Shown one piece after another: positions 18,466 to 50,618 of a stretch of DNA of 64,000 bases. The notes beneath the pieces were generated by a model. The model worked only from the letters and a program-made list of their open reading frames with translations. It ran no database searches and had not been told where the DNA came from. Origin of the DNA: Bacteroidota bacterium (GTDB taxonomy: Bacteria > Bacteroidota > Bacteroidia > Bacteroidales > Prolixibacteraceae). How positions within the stretch are numbered: position 1 is the first letter of the stretch; the number at the start of each line of letters is the position of its first letter. The translations under genes and the position numbers were made by a program. The DNA lies in contig JAHEYU010000003.1 of assembly GCA_023251435.1 (NCBI GenBank), positions 23,079 through 87,078 of the forward strand, written 5' to 3'.

Positions 18466-18828
18466 ATGAAAAGTTATAAAGACCTTGAAATATATATGCA
18501 GGCATTTGATTTAGCCGTTCGAATATATTTCATGACGATTAAACTTCCCAATCCCGACAAATTTGAAACAGGTAGTCAAATTAGAAGATCCAGCCAATCG
18601 ATAAAGGATAACATTGTTGAAGGCTATGGTAGAAGAAGATACAAAGCTGATTTTATTAAGTTTTTGGTTTATAGTCACGCTTCACTGTTGGAATCAACAT
18701 CACAAGCTGAATTTATAAATGCGATTCACCCTGAAACCGGTTGGAAAGAAATTGTAGAGGAATTAAACAAACTTGGAGTTAAACTTTCGAATTTCATAAT
18801 ATACGTCGAAACCAACTGGAAAACCTGA
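18466..18828 (+). CDS. Four-helix-bundle protein (S23/23S rRNA IVP-like)
   Basis: KDLEIYMQAFDLAVRIY...FETGSQIRRSSQSIKDNIVEGYGRRRYKADFIKFLVYSHASLLES. Confidence 0.92.
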   Translation: MKSYKDLEIYMQAFDLAVRIYFMTIKLPNPDKFETGSQIRRSSQSIKDNIVEGYGRRRYKADFIKFLVYSHASLLESTSQAEFINAIHPETGWKEIVEELNKLGVKLSNFIIYVETNWKT

Positions 18829-18885
18829 CAACAATTACAACAACGACAACGATTACAACCAATACAACAACGACAACACGATATC

Positions 18886-38534: not shown

Positions 38535-40187
38535 TCAATTTGATTTTATTAACGACTTGAAATTATTTTTCTTAACAGGTTCCGGTTCAGTGATAAATGG
38601 AATAGTGAAATAGAATGTGGAACCTTTACCTACCTCGCTCTCTACCCATATTTTACCGCCCAGTAGTTCTACATAAGCTTTGGCAATCGCTAAGCCCAAT
38701 CCTGCTCCCTGACGCGCCATTTTGTCGGTAATATCGGCCTGAATAAATCGTTCAAATATGGCTTCCTGCCTGTCTTTTGGAATCCCAATTCCGGTATCTT
38801 TCACATAAAATTGCAGTAGAGACAAGGCATGCCTTCTCTCTACGATATACCCAATTTCAATTGAACCATTATTGGTATATTTAATGGCATTTTTAATGAG
38901 ATTGGTAAGAATAGCATAGATTTTCTCCTGGTCTGTTTTAACAAAAGCTTTGTCTGTTGGTAAAGCGTTGAAATAGGAAAAGTGAATTTTCTTTCTTTCG
39001 GCTTCGGGTTTGAAGAAGGTATAAATGTATTGGACTTTCTCGTTTATATTGGTTTCCTTAATTTCAGCCTTCATCAGCCCGGCTTCTATTTTCGAAATAT
39101 CAACAATATCGTTGATGATATTGAGCATACGGGCGCCGCTTTTCTCAATTACTTTAATATATTCTTGTTGCTCCTCACCTGAAAGATCAGGTTCTTTAAG
39201 CAGTTCGGCAAAGCCTAAAATGCCGTTCATTGGAGTCCTTATTTCATGGCTCATATTGGCAAGAAAAGCTGATTTTAGTTTGTCGCTTTGTTCAGCATGT
39301 TCTTTTGCAATAGTTAATTCTACAGCCCGTTTTTCTTTCTCATTGTTTTGATAGATAAGTTCTTTGTTGGCTAGTAATAATTCTTGTTCAGCCAGCTTAC
39401 GCTGCGTTATGTCTTGAATAATTGGCAGAAAGTATAAAGGATTATTGTTCGAATCACTTACTAAACTAAAACTATTCATTCCCCAAACAATCGTGCCATC
39501 TTTCCGAACGTAGCGATTCTCAATTGTTAAAGATTCAATCTCCCTTTCCAGGATATGTTTCATCTCTATCAGACCAAGTTCAACATCTTCAGGATGTGTA
39601 ATATCTGAAATTGTCTTTCCGATCAGTTCGTTCTCTGAGTAACCTATGAAATTACAGAAAGCTGAATTGCATCTGTTTAAACGTTTATCTAAACCGACAA
39701 GAACAGATCCTACCGGAGATTGGTCAAAAATACTACGGAATTTTTCTTCGCTTTCCCTTAGCTCGTCTTGTGCCTGCTTATGCGTAATCTTAAGTTTATG
39801 TTCGCGAATGGCTCTGTTAATTGCGGGGACCAACCGTTCAAGTTTGTTTTTTAGCACATAATCGGTTGCCCCGTTTAACATGGCATCAATAGCCCGGTCT
39901 TCGCCCATTGCTCCTGAAACGAACAGAAATGGTATATCTGAATATCTTTCTCTTGCAACCTTTAATGCATCGTTGCCATTGTAATCAGGCAGACTGTAAT
40001 CAGACAATATGATGTCAATAGTTTCAGTTTCCAGAATATTTAAGAAATCCTTTTCATTGTCGGCTAAAAAATAATCATGTTCGATTTCTCCACTTTCAAT
40101 CAATGAGTGAATTAGTTCAGAATCTCTGATCGAATCTTCAAGATGCAATATTTTTATATTTTTATCCATTAAAATAAGAGATTTCAA
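38535..40187 (-). CDS. Hybrid REC-PAS-histidine kinase
   Basis: N-terminal receiver (IDIILSDYSLPDYNG), PAS, HisKA (FLANMSHEIRTPMNGILGFAELL), HATPase (GAGLGLAIAKAYVELLGGKIWVES). Confidence 0.93.
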   Translation of the reverse strand: MKSLILMDKNIKILHLEDSIRDSELIHSLIESGEIEHDYFLADNEKDFLNILETETIDIILSDYSLPDYNGNDALKVARERYSDIPFLFVSGAMGEDRAIDAMLNGATDYVLKNKLERLVPAINRAIREHKLKITHKQAQDELRESEEKFRSIFDQSPVGSVLVGLDKRLNRCNSAFCNFIGYSENELIGKTISDITHPEDVELGLIEMKHILEREIESLTIENRYVRKDGTIVWGMNSFSLVSDSNNNPLYFLPIIQDITQRKLAEQELLLANKELIYQNNEKEKRAVELTIAKEHAEQSDKLKSAFLANMSHEIRTPMNGILGFAELLKEPDLSGEEQQEYIKVIEKSGARMLNIINDIVDISKIEAGLMKAEIKETNINEKVQYIYTFFKPEAERKKIHFSYFNALPTDKAFVKTDQEKIYAILTNLIKNAIKYTNNGSIEIGYIVERRHALSLLQFYVKDTGIGIPKDRQEAIFERFIQADITDKMARQGAGLGLAIAKAYVELLGGKIWVESEVGKGSTFYFTIPFITEPEPVKKNNFKSLIKSN

Positions 40188-40217: not shown

Positions 40218-40667
40218 TCACTTTAAAACCACAGTTGGTTGTTGATTGATTACAGCCCAATATTGTCCCAAAATTTTAATGGCATCAATAAACTGAACGA
40301 TATCAACCGGTTTAACCACATACGAATTAGCCCCAAGTTTGTAACTCTCAACCAGATCTCTTTCTTCGCGCGATGAGGTTACCATGATTACCGGAATTAA
40401 CATGAATTTAGGATCGGAACGAATGTGTTTGAGCACTTCTATTCCATTCATTCTGGGCATTTTAATATCTAATAAAATTACTGCAGGATTGCCTTTATCA
40501 CGTTCGGCAAAATCACCACGTCTATACAGATAGTCTAATGCCTCAACTCCGTCCTCGGCAACATCGACTTTGTTTGCTAGATTTTTTTCACCAAGGGCGG
40601 CGATAACAAGTTCAACATCTTTAGGACTATCGTCCACAATAAGGATTCTTTTTACTTCTGCATTCAT
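40218..40667 (-). CDS. Stand-alone response regulator receiver protein
   Basis: RILIVDDSPKDVELVIAAL; VILLDIKMPRMNGIEVLKHIR; Rcp1-like. Confidence 0.93.
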   Translation of the reverse strand: MNAEVKRILIVDDSPKDVELVIAALGEKNLANKVDVAEDGVEALDYLYRRGDFAERDKGNPAVILLDIKMPRMNGIEVLKHIRSDPKFMLIPVIMVTSSREERDLVESYKLGANSYVVKPVDIVQFIDAIKILGQYWAVINQQPTVVLK

Positions 40668-40682
40668 GATTTGTTAGTTTTA

Positions 40683-42722
40683 TTAATCATTCGGTTTACT
40701 AAAGAAAAAAGTGGCTCCTTTGCCGACTTCACTTTCCGCCCAACATTTTCCACCATGCCGTGCTATTATTCTATTCACATTGGCAAGCCCAATTCCAATC
40801 CCTTCAAAATCCTTTGCTTTATGCAACCGTTGGAAAACGCCGAATAGTTTATCTGCATACTTCATATCAAATCCGGCACCGTTATCCCTGACATGAAATA
40901 TTATCTGGTCATCTTCTATTTTACCACCAATATGAATGACTGATTTTTCCTTTTTTCGGGAATATTTCAACGCGTTTGAAATCAAATTGGCCCAAACCTG
41001 AGTGATCAAGGTTTCGTCGCCAATTGCATCCGGAAGATCAGATACATTAATTTCAACATTTCTGCCGTCTATTTCATCACTAAACGTTTTAATTACCCTG
41101 TTTACCAAGCTTTTTGAATTGATTTTTGTTACCTGCAATTCGGCCCTGCTAAATCTCGAAAAGGTCAATAATGCATCTATCAGGTTCCCCATCTCGCAAT
41201 ATGACTCTGAAATGATGTTCAAATATCGTAATCCTGATTCGTCGAGTTGTGATGAATTATTTTTAATCAGTAAATCAACAAAACCTCCAATATGTCGCAG
41301 TGGCGCCCGCAAATCGTGCGAGACGGAATAGCTGAATGCTTCGAGTTCTTTATTCGCCGCTTCCTGTTTTTCTTTCTCCTCATTTTGAAAGACAAGTTCT
41401 TTGTTGGCAATGACCAGTTCATCTGCCCGTTTTTCTTTTTCTTCGTTTTGAAAAACAAGTTCTTTATCAGCAATGATTAGTTCTTCCGCACGTTTTTCTT
41501 TCTCTTCGTTTTGAAAGACAAGCTCTTTGTTAGCAATGACAAGCTCATCGGCCCGTTTTTCTTTCTCCAGGTTTTGAAAGATAAGCTCTTTGTTGGCAAT
41601 GATCAGCTCATCAGCCCGCTTTTCTTTTTCCCTGTTTTGAAAGGCAAGTTCCTTGTTGGCAATGATTAATTCCGCTGCACGTTTTTCTTTCTCCTCATTT
41701 TGGACAGCAAGATTTTTGTTGGCAATGATTAATTCGGCGGCTCGTTTTTCTTTCTCTTCATTTTGATAGGCTAATTCTTTATTGGAAATGTTTAACTCAT
41801 CTGCCCGCTTTTCTTTTTCCCTGTTTTGAAAGGCAAGTTCTTTGTTGGCAATGATTAATTCGGCGGCCCGTTTTTCTTTCTCCTCGTTTTGAAAGGCAAG
41901 CTCTTTGTTGGCAATGATTAATTCTGCAGCCCGCTTTTCTTTTTCCCTGTTTTGAAAGGCAAGTTCATGATTAGAAATGCTTAATTCATCTGCCCGCTTT
42001 TCTTTCTCCTCGTTTTGAAAGGCAAGTTCCTTGTTGGCAATGCTTAACTCATCCGCCAGTTTTTCTTTCTCCCTGTTCTGAAAGGCAAGTTCTTTGTTGG
42101 CAATACTTAACTCATCTGCCCGTTTCCCTTTCTCTTTGTTTTGAAAGGCAAGTTTCTTATTCGCATTGATGAGCTCATCTGCCCGTTTTTCTTTCTCCTC
42201 GTTTTGAAAAGCAAGTTCTTTGTTAGCAATGATTAATTCATCTGCCCGTTTTTCTTTCTCTCTGTTTTGAAAAACAAGCTCTTTGTTGGCAACGATTAAT
42301 TCGGCGGCCCGTTTTTCTTTCTCCTCGTTTTGAAAGGCAAGCTCTTTGTCAGCAATGATTAATTCCGCCGCCCGTTTTTCTTTCTCTTCGCTTTGAAATG
42401 CAAGTTCTTTGTCAGCAATAATCAATTCTGCGGCCCGTTTCTTCTTCTCTTCTTTTTGAAAAGCAAGCTCTTTGTCAGCAATAATCAATTCTGCGGCTCG
42501 TTTCTTCTTCTCTTCTTTTTGAAAAGCAAGCTCCTTGTCAGCGATGATCAACTCGGCAGCCCGTTTCTTTTTTTCTTCTTTTTGAAAAGCAAGCTCCTTG
42601 TCAGCGATAATAAGTTCTGCTGCAAGTTTCTCTTTCTCTTCGCTTTGAATGAGAAGTTCTTTGTTCGCAATGATTAACTCATCCGTTTTTTTACTTTTAT
42701 CCATACACTTATATGACAACAT
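40683..42722 (-). CDS. Histidine kinase with N-terminal array of 21 tandem 21-aa repeats
   Basis: Repeats of consensus A(A/D)ELIIANKELAFQNEEKEKR, followed by HisKA SYSVSHDLRAPLRHIGGFVDLL and HATPase. Likely start MDKSKKTDEL at 42704. Confidence 0.95.
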   Translation of the reverse strand: MLSYKCMDKSKKTDELIIANKELLIQSEEKEKLAAELIIADKELAFQKEEKKKRAAELIIADKELAFQKEEKKKRAAELIIADKELAFQKEEKKKRAAELIIADKELAFQSEEKEKRAAELIIADKELAFQNEEKEKRAAELIVANKELVFQNREKEKRADELIIANKELAFQNEEKEKRADELINANKKLAFQNKEKGKRADELSIANKELAFQNREKEKLADELSIANKELAFQNEEKEKRADELSISNHELAFQNREKEKRAAELIIANKELAFQNEEKEKRAAELIIANKELAFQNREKEKRADELNISNKELAYQNEEKEKRAAELIIANKNLAVQNEEKEKRAAELIIANKELAFQNREKEKRADELIIANKELIFQNLEKEKRADELVIANKELVFQNEEKEKRAEELIIADKELVFQNEEKEKRADELVIANKELVFQNEEKEKQEAANKELEAFSYSVSHDLRAPLRHIGGFVDLLIKNNSSQLDESGLRYLNIISESYCEMGNLIDALLTFSRFSRAELQVTKINSKSLVNRVIKTFSDEIDGRNVEINVSDLPDAIGDETLITQVWANLISNALKYSRKKEKSVIHIGGKIEDDQIIFHVRDNGAGFDMKYADKLFGVFQRLHKAKDFEGIGIGLANVNRIIARHGGKCWAESEVGKGATFFFSKPND
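41364..42686 (-). repeat. 63-bp in-frame tandem repeat array, 21 copies
   Basis: Counted from the ORF translation, aa 13-453 of the kinase; each unit 21 aa. Confidence 0.93.
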
Positions 42723-46478: not shown

Positions 46479-49400
46479 TTGTTTTATTCTCAAACAAATT
46501 ATAGAGTATATGAAAAAATGACAGAAATTACAGGCCGTATTGTTGCTTTGGAAAGGCTTTTCCGGAGAAAAATCTTTCTGTTGTTTTGTTTGGTGTTTCT
46601 TCTTACCGGATTGAAATCCAGCGGAATTGAGGTAGTAAACAATCTTAATTTTGACTTCTATTCGCAAGAACACGGACTTTCAAATAACCAGATTCATTGC
46701 ATCCTTCAGGATAAAAAAGGTTGGATGTGGATTGGTACTTCGCAAGGTGTTTGCCGCTTTGATGGTTATAAATTTACAGTTTTTAAGAACGATCCCGAAG
46801 ACCCGGCCAGCCTGAAAGGAAATTTGGTCAGGGCTATTTTTGAGGATAGCAAAGGTCAGCTATGGGTTGGTACCGAGAATGGTGGGCTGAACAAATTCAA
46901 CCGCGAGAAAGAAAATTTTCATCATTTATTCTATAATGGCGATGCAGCTGTTTTGAAAGATGCATCGGTTACTTCAATTCACGAAGATGCTACCGGAATT
47001 CTTTGGGTGGGTACCGAGACAAAGTTGTACCGAATCGAAAATGAAAAAAGCATCACCGAAATAAAACCTGCAAATCTTTCCGCATTTTCCGAATATTTTC
47101 GGGTTCTGCGTTCCGATAAGTCGGGGCGTATCTGGATTGGAACAAACAATGGACTTTTTATTTACGATCCGAATACCAATTCTGCCACAAAGCTTGATTT
47201 GAATCCCAGTTTTTCGGCCAATCATGAAATATGGGAAATTGTGATCGAAGACGATCGTACCATCTGGGTTGGAACTTATGCCAACGGAATGTACACTATC
47301 GATCCGGTTTCGATGGTTACACGTCACCTTGTGATTGATAAGGAAAACGACCGAAGCAACACCGTAAGGGCAATTTCGAAAGACCGAAGTGGTAAATACT
47401 GGATTGGAACCAGGGGCGGATTATATACTTATGAGAAACAAAAAGGAGTTGTCGCATTTTATTACCACGATGTAAGGCAACCCAAAAGCCTGGTGAATAA
47501 TTCTGTACAGTGCATTTTTCACGATGTGAAAGGCGATGTATGGATTGGCACCCGCGGAGGCATAAATTTTTTGATTGAAGAGAGGCAAAATATTCAGAGC
47601 TATAAAGCAATGCCCGACGATCCGCACTACCTTAACAGCAGCGAGATCTTTGCTTTTTGGGTCGATCCGAAAGGTGATATCTGGGTTGGAACCGAAAGCG
47701 GAGGCATTAATATTCTGGACCGAAAAACCGGTCGTTTCAGTTACCTCATGCCGCAAAAGGGAAATCCAAATTCCTTGTCGCGCAATTGTATAAAAGCATT
47801 GCTCGACGATGGAAAAAACAACCTCTGGATCGGCACTTTCCTTGGTGGAATTGATGTTTTAAATCTAAAAACCGGAACTTACACGCATTATAAAAACGAT
47901 CCGGCTGATCCGGGAAGTCTTTCGGATAACCGTGTTTGGGCTTTGCTGCTCGATAGTAATAAGGATATTTGGGTGGGCACCGGTACCGGACTCGATAAGT
48001 TCGATCCGGCAACCGGAACTTTTATTCATTACCGGAATTTAGTTGATGGTCAGCAAGTAAGTTGGCTGGCTGAAGACAGCGACCGGTGTTTATGGATAGG
48101 CGCCGATGATGTTGTTATTTATAATCCTGAAAATAAAAATGTTACCAGAATTGACGAATCGACGCGTTACATGCTGGAGGATTCGAAAAAACGGCTTTGG
48201 CTGGCCACTTTTAATCGTGGAATTGCACTTTATTCCAAAGAAAAGGGTATTGTAAAAAATTATACCGAAAAGAATGGATTAGCTAATAACCAAACACTTG
48301 CTATTCTTCAGGACAACGATCAGTATTTATGGATCAGCACCACCAACGGACTGTCGAAATTTGATCCTGAAACCGAGCGTTTTCATAATTATTCGTTGAA
48401 AAACGGATTTCAGAACAACCAGTTTTCTTATGGGGCGGCCTATAAAACTAAAGAAGGAGAACTGATTTTCGGTGGAATTTCGGGTTTCAATTTTTTTAAT
48501 CCGGCAAAAATTAAGTCGGGCGATTATTTTGCCCCCATCATTCTCACCGACCTGAAAATATTCAACAAATCGGTAAAAATTGGCGACCACAAAAAAGATG
48601 TTTTAACGAAATCTATTTCAGAAACTGAAGAAATAAAGCTTAAATACGACCAAAATTCAATTACCCTCGATTTTACATCGTTTGATTACGCGAATAGTCT
48701 CGGCATTCAATTCGCTTATTTTCTTGATGGCTTTGATAAGGATTGGAACGAACCATCTGTAAATCGTTCGGCCACTTACACCAATCTTGATCCGGGCGAA
48801 TATTATTTCAGGGTAAAGACCGTTTCGATTGACCGAAAAGAAAGCAATGAAGGACCCGTACTTCGAATAATTGTTTTGCCACCCTATTGGAAAACATGGT
48901 GGTTCAGGAGTATCGCTTTTCTGTCAATTCTGGGTTTGCTTTACCTGCTGGTTACTTTTCTGCTGAACAGGGAAAAACTCAAAAACGACCTTGTTTTCGA
49001 AAAAATAAGGGCAAAAAAGCTGCACGAACTCGATATGATGAAATTGCGTTTTTATACCAATATTTCGCACGAGATTCGCACTCCGTTGACCCTCATTCTC
49101 GGTCCGCTCGAAAAAATGAAGACCAATTCGATTCCTGAATCGGAGATAAAAGGACATGTTGATGTGATGCACCGTAATGCCACACAGTTACATCAGCTAA
49201 TCAATCAGTTACTCGATTTTAGGAAAATGGAAACCGGGAACCTGAAATTGGTTTTGTCGCGCGGTGATTTGGTTTCGTACATTTTAGGAATCGTTGAATC
49301 GTTCGGTAAATTCTCTGAAGAGAAAGGGATTGAGCTTAAATTCATCTCGCTAAAGAAGGAGATTATAACCAGTTTCGACTCCGACAAGGTGGCCAAAATA

Positions 49401-50618
49401 ATGAACAACCTGCTTTCGAATGCCATTAAATTTACAGGAAATGGTGGTAAAATATCTGTAAACCTTTCGCTTGTTTTCGATTCTGACGAGAATGAAATGG
49501 CAGGTAGTTCTTCTGATAAACGAATAATTGAAATAACGGTGAAAGATACCGGAATAGGTATTTCAGAATCTAACCTTGAGAAGATATTTGCCCGGTTTTT
49601 TCAGGTTGGAGAAGATGCTACTCATACCGGAACCGGAATTGGACTGGCACTCACCAAAGAATTGGTGAAGCTGCACAACGGAAAAATATTTGTGGTGAGC
49701 AAACCCGGAAAAGGCTCTAAATTTACTGTTCAGCTTCCTTATGAGGAACTTGCCCACTCCGAATCGCCTGTAAATGTTGCTTCAGCAGAAAAGAATGAAA
49801 GCGAGCAAGTTATTTTGGTTAGCGAAGAGCAGCCGGGTGAACAATTGCTTTCGGGACAAAAAATCATGCTTTTGGTTGACGACAATGCTGATGTCCGCTA
49901 TTTTATCAAGTCGCATTTTTTGTCTGGTTATCAGGTGCTTGAGGCAGGAAATGGACAGGAAGGCTGGAATCTGGCTTTGAAAACTATTCCTGATATAATA
50001 ATCAGTGATGTGATGATGCCCGATATGGATGGTTTCGAGTTTTGCCGGAAAATACGAAAAGACGAACGTACTTCGCATATACCGGTTTTATTGCTCACCG
50101 CGCTCGGTTCGCGCGAGCACGAAATTGAAGGATTGAGCTACGGAGCCGACGACTACATTACCAAGCCGTTCGATCTGGTAATTCTTCAAACTAAAGTCGA
50201 AAATATACTGTCGGTGCGACAGTCGCTAAAACAAAAATATGCCGGCGAAATGCTGCTTCAGCCCAGGAATATACTACTTAGTTCGCCCGACGAACGATTC
50301 CTGCAAAAAGCCATCGATGTGGTAGAGAACAGCATTGCCGATCCGGATCTTGATATCGAAAGGTTTGCCTCCGAAATTGGGGTCAGCCGTATGCAGCTGT
50401 ATCGCAAATTGAACGCACTTACCGAAATGACAGTCAAGGAATTCGTTCGGAATATCCGAATGAAACGTGCTGCCCAAATGCTGGTTCAGAAAAAACTGAA
50501 CATTTCTGAAGTAGCTTATGCTGTCGGTTTCCGCGACTTGTCGCATTTCCGCAAATGTTTCAGGCAGGAATTTGGAATGAGCGCCTCTGAATATGTGGAC
50601 AAACACGGGACGGAATAA
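46479..50618 (+). CDS. Hybrid two-component system regulator (Reg_prop/Y_Y_Y sensor, HisKA-HATPase, REC, AraC-type HTH)
   Basis: Repeated W-IGT-GGL beta-propeller blades, NISHEIRTPLTLILGPLEKM, receiver PDIIISDVMMPDMDG, C-terminal AraC HTH. The real start is probably an internal ATG. Confidence 0.96.
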   Translation: MFYSQTNYRVYEKMTEITGRIVALERLFRRKIFLLFCLVFLLTGLKSSGIEVVNNLNFDFYSQEHGLSNNQIHCILQDKKGWMWIGTSQGVCRFDGYKFTVFKNDPEDPASLKGNLVRAIFEDSKGQLWVGTENGGLNKFNREKENFHHLFYNGDAAVLKDASVTSIHEDATGILWVGTETKLYRIENEKSITEIKPANLSAFSEYFRVLRSDKSGRIWIGTNNGLFIYDPNTNSATKLDLNPSFSANHEIWEIVIEDDRTIWVGTYANGMYTIDPVSMVTRHLVIDKENDRSNTVRAISKDRSGKYWIGTRGGLYTYEKQKGVVAFYYHDVRQPKSLVNNSVQCIFHDVKGDVWIGTRGGINFLIEERQNIQSYKAMPDDPHYLNSSEIFAFWVDPKGDIWVGTESGGINILDRKTGRFSYLMPQKGNPNSLSRNCIKALLDDGKNNLWIGTFLGGIDVLNLKTGTYTHYKNDPADPGSLSDNRVWALLLDSNKDIWVGTGTGLDKFDPATGTFIHYRNLVDGQQVSWLAEDSDRCLWIGADDVVIYNPENKNVTRIDESTRYMLEDSKKRLWLATFNRGIALYSKEKGIVKNYTEKNGLANNQTLAILQDNDQYLWISTTNGLSKFDPETERFHNYSLKNGFQNNQFSYGAAYKTKEGELIFGGISGFNFFNPAKIKSGDYFAPIILTDLKIFNKSVKIGDHKKDVLTKSISETEEIKLKYDQNSITLDFTSFDYANSLGIQFAYFLDGFDKDWNEPSVNRSATYTNLDPGEYYFRVKTVSIDRKESNEGPVLRIIVLPPYWKTWWFRSIAFLSILGLLYLLVTFLLNREKLKNDLVFEKIRAKKLHELDMMKLRFYTNISHEIRTPLTLILGPLEKMKTNSIPESEIKGHVDVMHRNATQLHQLINQLLDFRKMETGNLKLVLSRGDLVSYILGIVESFGKFSEEKGIELKFISLKKEIITSFDSDKVAKIMNNLLSNAIKFTGNGGKISVNLSLVFDSDENEMAGSSSDKRIIEITVKDTGIGISESNLEKIFARFFQVGEDATHTGTGIGLALTKELVKLHNGKIFVVSKPGKGSKFTVQLPYEELAHSESPVNVASAEKNESEQVILVSEEQPGEQLLSGQKIMLLVDDNADVRYFIKSHFLSGYQVLEAGNGQEGWNLALKTIPDIIISDVMMPDMDGFEFCRKIRKDERTSHIPVLLLTALGSREHEIEGLSYGADDYITKPFDLVILQTKVENILSVRQSLKQKYAGEMLLQPRNILLSSPDERFLQKAIDVVENSIADPDLDIERFASEIGVSRMQLYRKLNALTEMTVKEFVRNIRMKRAAQMLVQKKLNISEVAYAVGFRDLSHFRKCFRQEFGMSASEYVDKHGTE

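Follow-up and report, generated by a model that had tools for sequence, protein, structure and literature searches.

The window, a 64,000-nucleotide stretch of a Bacteroidota genome, carries on its minus strand an operon headed by a histidine kinase in which a long tandem array stands immediately ahead of the catalytic core. The features of this locus are:

40683..42722, minus strand: histidine kinase ORF, 679 aa counted from the first ATG
41364..42686, minus strand: tandem array of 21 x 21-aa (63-bp, three-heptad) units, 441 aa
41316..41363, minus strand: junction between the array and the DHp, EAANKELEAFSYSVSH, with the phospho-His at 469
40683..41342, minus strand: HisKA + HATPase_c core, with SHDLRAP and the NLISNALKYS, DNGAGFD and GIGIGLA boxes
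40218..40667, minus strand: second operon gene after a 15 bp gap, a stand-alone REC (CheY-like) protein of 149 aa
38535..40187, minus strand: third operon gene, a REC-PAS-HisKA-HATPase kinase

The translation of 40683-42722 (minus strand) places the array at residues 13-453 of the 679-aa kinase, where 21 units with the consensus A-[AD]-E-L-I-I-A-N-K-E-L-A-F-Q-N-E-E-K-E-K-R follow one another with zero insertions. TRF detected the same structure at 41359-42681 (period 63, 21.0 copies, 0% indels, score 1310). Scored against their own profile the units reached 56-75 bits, while the best score in the other long ORFs of the window was -5.9, with the exception of the operon neighbour at 38535-40187, which contains one genuine single unit (40.6). 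Fifteen residues separate the last unit from the phosphoacceptor motif SHDLRAP. Pfam assigned HisKA to residues 461-524 (5e-10) and HATPase_c to residues 568-677 (4e-23); together with the phospho-His and the N, G1 and G2 boxes, these domains mark the protein as a HisKA-type histidine kinase. Pfam found only these two domains and no PAS, GAF, HAMP or CHASE, and the kinase has neither a TM segment nor a sensor. Because an in-frame stop lies five codons 5′ of the first ATG, there is no space for a hidden N-terminal sensor. The N-terminus of the window kinase (MDKSKKTDELIIANKELL) is nearly the same as that of its nearest orthologue, L062, and since L062 begins MEKSKKTNELIIANKELL, Met7 (MDKSKK...) is more likely to be the start than the first ATG, with nothing missing in front. 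TRF, translation and Pfam thus confirm the original prediction of 21 in-register 21-aa units (441 aa) ahead of HisKA/HATPase, and Pfam and the upstream stop confirm that no sensor domain is recognisable. Elsewhere in the window lie a short 9/18-bp tandem repeat (18827-18878, GACAACAATTACAACAAA) and a 1379-aa ORF (46479-50618) that reads by eye as a hybrid two-component regulator with repeats, kinase, receiver and AraC-like parts.

The longest exact repeat inside the array is 56 bp and each 63-mer is unique, so short-read assembly could resolve it; for these reasons, and because orthologues in other assemblies carry 22-23 units, collapse of the array during assembly is unlikely. The exact count of 21 rests on a draft assembly of 148 contigs. 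Two further arrays of the same genome (G000) stop at contig ends (C103 and C107, both at the start), and copy numbers in draft assemblies therefore need long reads. That the array is an assembly artefact or its copy number wrong nevertheless seems to us extremely improbable: the draft state and the truncated arrays speak for it, but the unique 63-mers, the 22-23-unit orthologues and the occurrence of arrays in isolate genomes and single-contig assemblies all speak against it. The C103 array follows a TM segment, the position typical of this genus's CHASE3 kinase, and the kinase part of its gene seems to be unassembled.

Copies 2-4 had been described as nearly identical in DNA and read as a sign of recent expansion. 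They are identical only in protein, their DNA being 86-89% identical, and the closest unit pair in DNA is 14/17 (95%). Differences between units per site are 0.40 at the third codon position, 0.14 at the first and 0.12 at the second; the Nei-Gojobori comparison gave a pS of 0.66, where saturation for this codon usage is 0.84, a pN of 0.11 and a dN/dS of about 0.08. Recent expansion is accordingly rejected: the window array is old, and purifying selection acts on its protein. Unit protein identity is 74% even across unrelated arrays. DNA identity of units is 76% within an array versus 71% between arrays, so that concerted evolution inside arrays is weak.

Arrays occur in 19 of the 23 species sampled from the window genus and, at a stricter cut-off, in 19 of 396 genomes of a phylum sample (about 5%, a lower bound as few candidates were scored per genome). 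In a scan of a species-level collection, at least 536 stretches encoding arrays were recovered; the top 80, a sample skewed towards long arrays, all belong to Bacteroidota. The 152 non-identical arrays of at least three units that were compared, again all from Bacteroidota, range from 3 to 28 units, the longest being that of L060. The view that an array this long is unusual goes too far: the window array lies towards the upper end of the length distribution, yet lengths of up to 28 units occur and sensorless arrays are numerous. Homologues of equal length and known function, named by the original prediction as evidence against it, were found in respect of length (the 22-23-unit orthologues) but none has a known function. 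N-terminal arrays were significantly longer than internal ones in the phylum sample (P = 0.005) but not in the genus sample (P = 0.2). In a plasmid search the sole match was an unrelated coiled coil of 23% identity in Rhodococcus, and a phage search for the array returned none.

The arrays obey spacing rules. Successive units abut exactly at 1672 of 1707 spacings. Of 25 short interruptions, 24 span whole heptads (7, 14 or 21 residues); several of these share ancestry, so the 24 are not independent events. Each kinase class keeps a fixed distance between the last unit and the H motif, whereas the number of copies varies up to seven-fold:

distance 15: 3-23 copies
distance 19: 3-22 copies
distance 26: 5-19 copies
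distance 51: 13-25 copies
distance 181: 5-19 copies, with a further domain between the array and the H motif

The junction of the window class was 15 in all eight members measured. This is four residues below the commonest junction between array and DHp (19), and the heptad register is therefore offset at DHp entry. A phase of 5 mod 7 was found at 56 of 83 direct junctions, spanning several kinase classes, and in the SHDLQEP class four junction lengths all share this phase. Such rules bear on near-neutral drift in length, in which unequal recombination would alter the number of copies, selection would keep the heptad register only, and copy number would have no function. Drift of this kind would account for a fixed heptad phase beside an unfixed length, for the identical 63-bp pair present in 9 of 98 long arrays, and for orthologues that differ by whole units (3, 4, 8 and 9 within one genus), a variability in length that had been correctly anticipated. 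We consider it distinctly unlikely, however, given the protein identity of units from unrelated arrays, the low dN/dS in the window and the clustering of the nearest sensorless orthologues at 21-23 units.

The window kinase is the first gene of an HK-REC-REC/HK operon, a gene order that recurs in more than 10 loci. The single unit of the third gene sits at its PAS-HisKA linker; third genes of related operons carry 0-19 units, and in several operons it is the third gene, not the head kinase, that has the long array (16-19 units). CHASE3 kinases of this operon family share the operon neighbours of the window kinase and have a core 67-81% identical to its own, but they combine TM-CHASE3 with 0-9 units, whereas the window kinase has 21 units and no sensor. 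The TM-CHASE3-TM N-terminus, absent from the window kinase according to Pfam, is present in the paralogues L060, L065 and L073, the three TM forms in which CHASE3 was assigned by Pfam; the remainder were assigned by TM segment and homology. On these assignments, TM-CHASE3 head kinases (HK1) carry 0, 1, 1, 1, 1, 1, 1, 3, 4, 8 and 9 units and sensorless ones 21, 22, 23, 23 and 28 (exact rank test, P = 0.0005, on related rows); the HK1 tree is poorly resolved, and the sensor/copy-number contrast comprises few independent events.

Among 1118 distinct units, conservation varies with position modulo 7, which accounts for 90% of its variance (1 in 100,000 permutations was as high), and the strongest conservation period tested was 3.5 residues. 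The most variable unit positions are 2/9/16, and the most conserved are 4/11/18 (L, L, K) and 7/14/21 (A, Q, R), a face flanked by a nearly invariant Glu at 3/10/17. The core of each unit is probably L-A, L-Q and K-R, so that no more than two of its six layers would hold Leu and two would hold Lys/Arg, the latter making up a heptad that is charged throughout. Heptad-periodic conservation fits a parallel in-register dimer; the structure model is an AF2 monomer, which at low confidence (mean pLDDT 57) forms a nearly unbroken helix over residues 5-390 and then 401-489 into the DHp. Both support the proposal that three-heptad units build a continuous coiled coil. Its 63 heptads would form a rod with a predicted length of about 65 nm (0.1485 nm per residue), for which a putative role as ruler or scaffold is possible. 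Single alpha helices of the ER/K type combine a very high charge density with the absence of a hydrophobic seam; this candidate was rejected, as the array is 46% charged and positions 4 and 11 are large hydrophobic in 99-100% of units.

The polar core also bears on the idea that the array is a physical sensor, which would melt cooperatively in response to temperature, ionic strength or crowding and thereby switch the kinase. Lys, Arg or Gln at half of the core positions agrees with this idea, as do long arrays in several named isolates, such as Arcticibacter eurypsychrophilus and Pedobacter cryophilus, whose names suggest cold habitats, a point that comes with no background rate; we think this candidate sensor role very unlikely.

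Two families of signalling coiled coil resemble the array. The S-helix, about 40 residues or about five heptads long with a conserved ERT signature in its central heptad, is a parallel coiled coil that precedes dimeric outputs, kinases and cyclases among them (PMC1592074). The array is a heptad-conserved coil before a dimeric output domain, but that of the window has 63 heptads rather than about five, and ERT occurs in just 1 of 1272 distinct units, which excludes membership of that family. In LvrB of Leptospira (PDB 8vc9, 9qqw, 9qr2), alphaS is one 21-residue, three-heptad parallel coil with basic core residues and a register break on entering the DHp, and formation of the coil accompanies activation and bends the DHp bundle (PMC13269768). 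The alphaS lengths of Rec-controlled kinases favour multiples of seven, and in simulations the bent state is favoured once a coil exceeds three heptads (PMC13269768). The array unit is like alphaS in its 21 residues, its three heptads, its basic core residues and the register break at the DHp; moreover, the third operon gene of the window has LvrB-like REC and kinase parts, and its L065 homologue matches LvrB by sequence. LvrB, however, has one unit and an N-terminal REC, whereas the window kinase has 21 units and, by Pfam, no REC, which is found instead in the third operon gene and removes the kinase from the Rec-controlled type. The junction phases also differ, those of LvrB and of the window class failing to match when derived from residue numbers, and LvrB is therefore an analogy, the likeness to alphaS falling short of demonstrated helix homology. 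Pfam matches of the array to PH_SLA1, CMV_1a_C and Gp10-like were mostly below cut-off, included no independently significant stretch and were dismissed as repeat artefacts. Literature searches among open-licence PMC papers (for the motif, 63-bp repeats and long kinase coiled coils) found no description. We place the array among signalling-helix coiled coils, though neither with the S-helix, by its ERT signature, nor, as REC is absent, with the Rec-controlled kinases.

On balance we lean towards the view that the array is a tandemly amplified signalling helix, similar to alphaS, which brings about dimerisation of the kinase and determines its state; that it could do so without a sensor is argued by analogy with LvrB, to which homology is not proven. 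According to this model, the 21 in-register units would pair in parallel as one long, uninterrupted dimeric coiled coil, continuing directly into the DHp helices of the cytoplasmic kinase. The window kinase belongs to one family with paralogues of the form TM-CHASE3-helix-HK; its own line has no sensor, and the rod, its only N-terminal part, would most likely hold the protein as a dimer. How well the coil forms beside the heptad-offset DHp junction would then determine how kinase activity is balanced against phosphatase activity, and the neighbouring REC protein and REC-PAS-HK, as putative phosphotransfer partners, would read out this balance. One unit should be weak, because so few core layers hold Leu and as many hold Lys/Arg; in a protein that no sensor domain dimerises, a large number of units may therefore be required. 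This reading draws on the heptad-periodic conservation and the whole-heptad interruptions, on purifying selection, on the distance to the kinase that each class keeps, on the AF2 helix, and on the conserved operon with its sensor/copy-number contrast. Against the signalling-helix reading, 63 heptads far exceed what dimerisation should require, a second hydrophobic stripe (positions 6 and 13, below) does not follow from a simple dimer, the AF2 monomer has low confidence, and the sensor/copy-number contrast comprises few independent events.

The chief rival to the alphaS-like reading casts the array itself as a module for input or assembly, whose rods would associate laterally or bind a putative partner through a stripe formed by positions 6 and 13, the clustering or binding itself being the signal. 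These positions (I/V/L and F/Y, respectively) are large hydrophobic in 96-98% of units yet face away from the presumed core, a pattern that a simple dimeric stalk leaves unexplained, and a linker with nothing at its far end is hard to reconcile with a passive role. The third heptad, by contrast, is charged on nearly all faces, which disfavours a continuous lateral interface; we regard this rival as unlikely, though it also draws on the variety of unrelated outputs that the array precedes, often as the sole N-terminal part. These outputs are at least four HisKA classes, a class III cyclase with an inserted GAF (L089), a phosphodiesterase-type HD_5 domain (L151), the signalling domain of a chemoreceptor (L137) and DHp-like proteins that lack a catalytic domain (L109, L133, L142). 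The DHp-like regions and two CheW genes were assigned by eye, the other output domains by Pfam. The chemoreceptor lies inside a complete CheW-CheR-CheW-MCP-CheA-CheB operon (L177, 950-7569, minus strand; CheW, CheR-TPR, CheW, MCP, CheA-REC, CheB), where the receptor is soluble and an 11-unit array is its sole N-terminal part.

Several of these loci deserve description in their own right. Recurrent short proteins, in L109 (4001-5245), L133 (3998-5131), L142, L148, L144, L141, L149 and L156, combine 6-15 units with a DHp-like H-box of the SHKVRQP type and lack a catalytic domain; those of L109 and L133 have no adjoining kinase gene. They are possible decoys or phosphotransfer partners. In L171 (4693-9681, minus strand) a single 1663-aa frame combines HMA and a copper-type P-type ATPase (CPC motif) with an ethylene-receptor N-terminal domain (ETR1_N, 2.5e-31, with ACGTTH), PAS domains and HisKA/HATPase, its kinase being 61% identical to the window kinase; L174 and L175 hold relatives with shorter frames. 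In plants the ethylene receptor is supplied by a separate copper ATPase, which makes a natural fusion of the two striking, and a literature search found no paper on such a fusion.

We tentatively entertain a broader possibility, that the array is a Bacteroidota-wide input/assembly module that has repeatedly replaced sensors before kinases, cyclases, chemoreceptors and bare DHp, and that would act through rod-rod association or through a coil whose stability is tuned by the number of units. In the usual view, helical linkers relay the signal of a sensor to a dimeric output, whereas here the only input left is such a helix in as many as 28 copies. Because the array also precedes cyclases and the chemoreceptor of a complete che operon, the module is portable and experimentally accessible. 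Related kinases carry from 3 to 28 units, almost without exception in heptad phase, and so constitute a natural length series that can probe whether coil length and stability set kinase output, a question raised directly by the LvrB structures.
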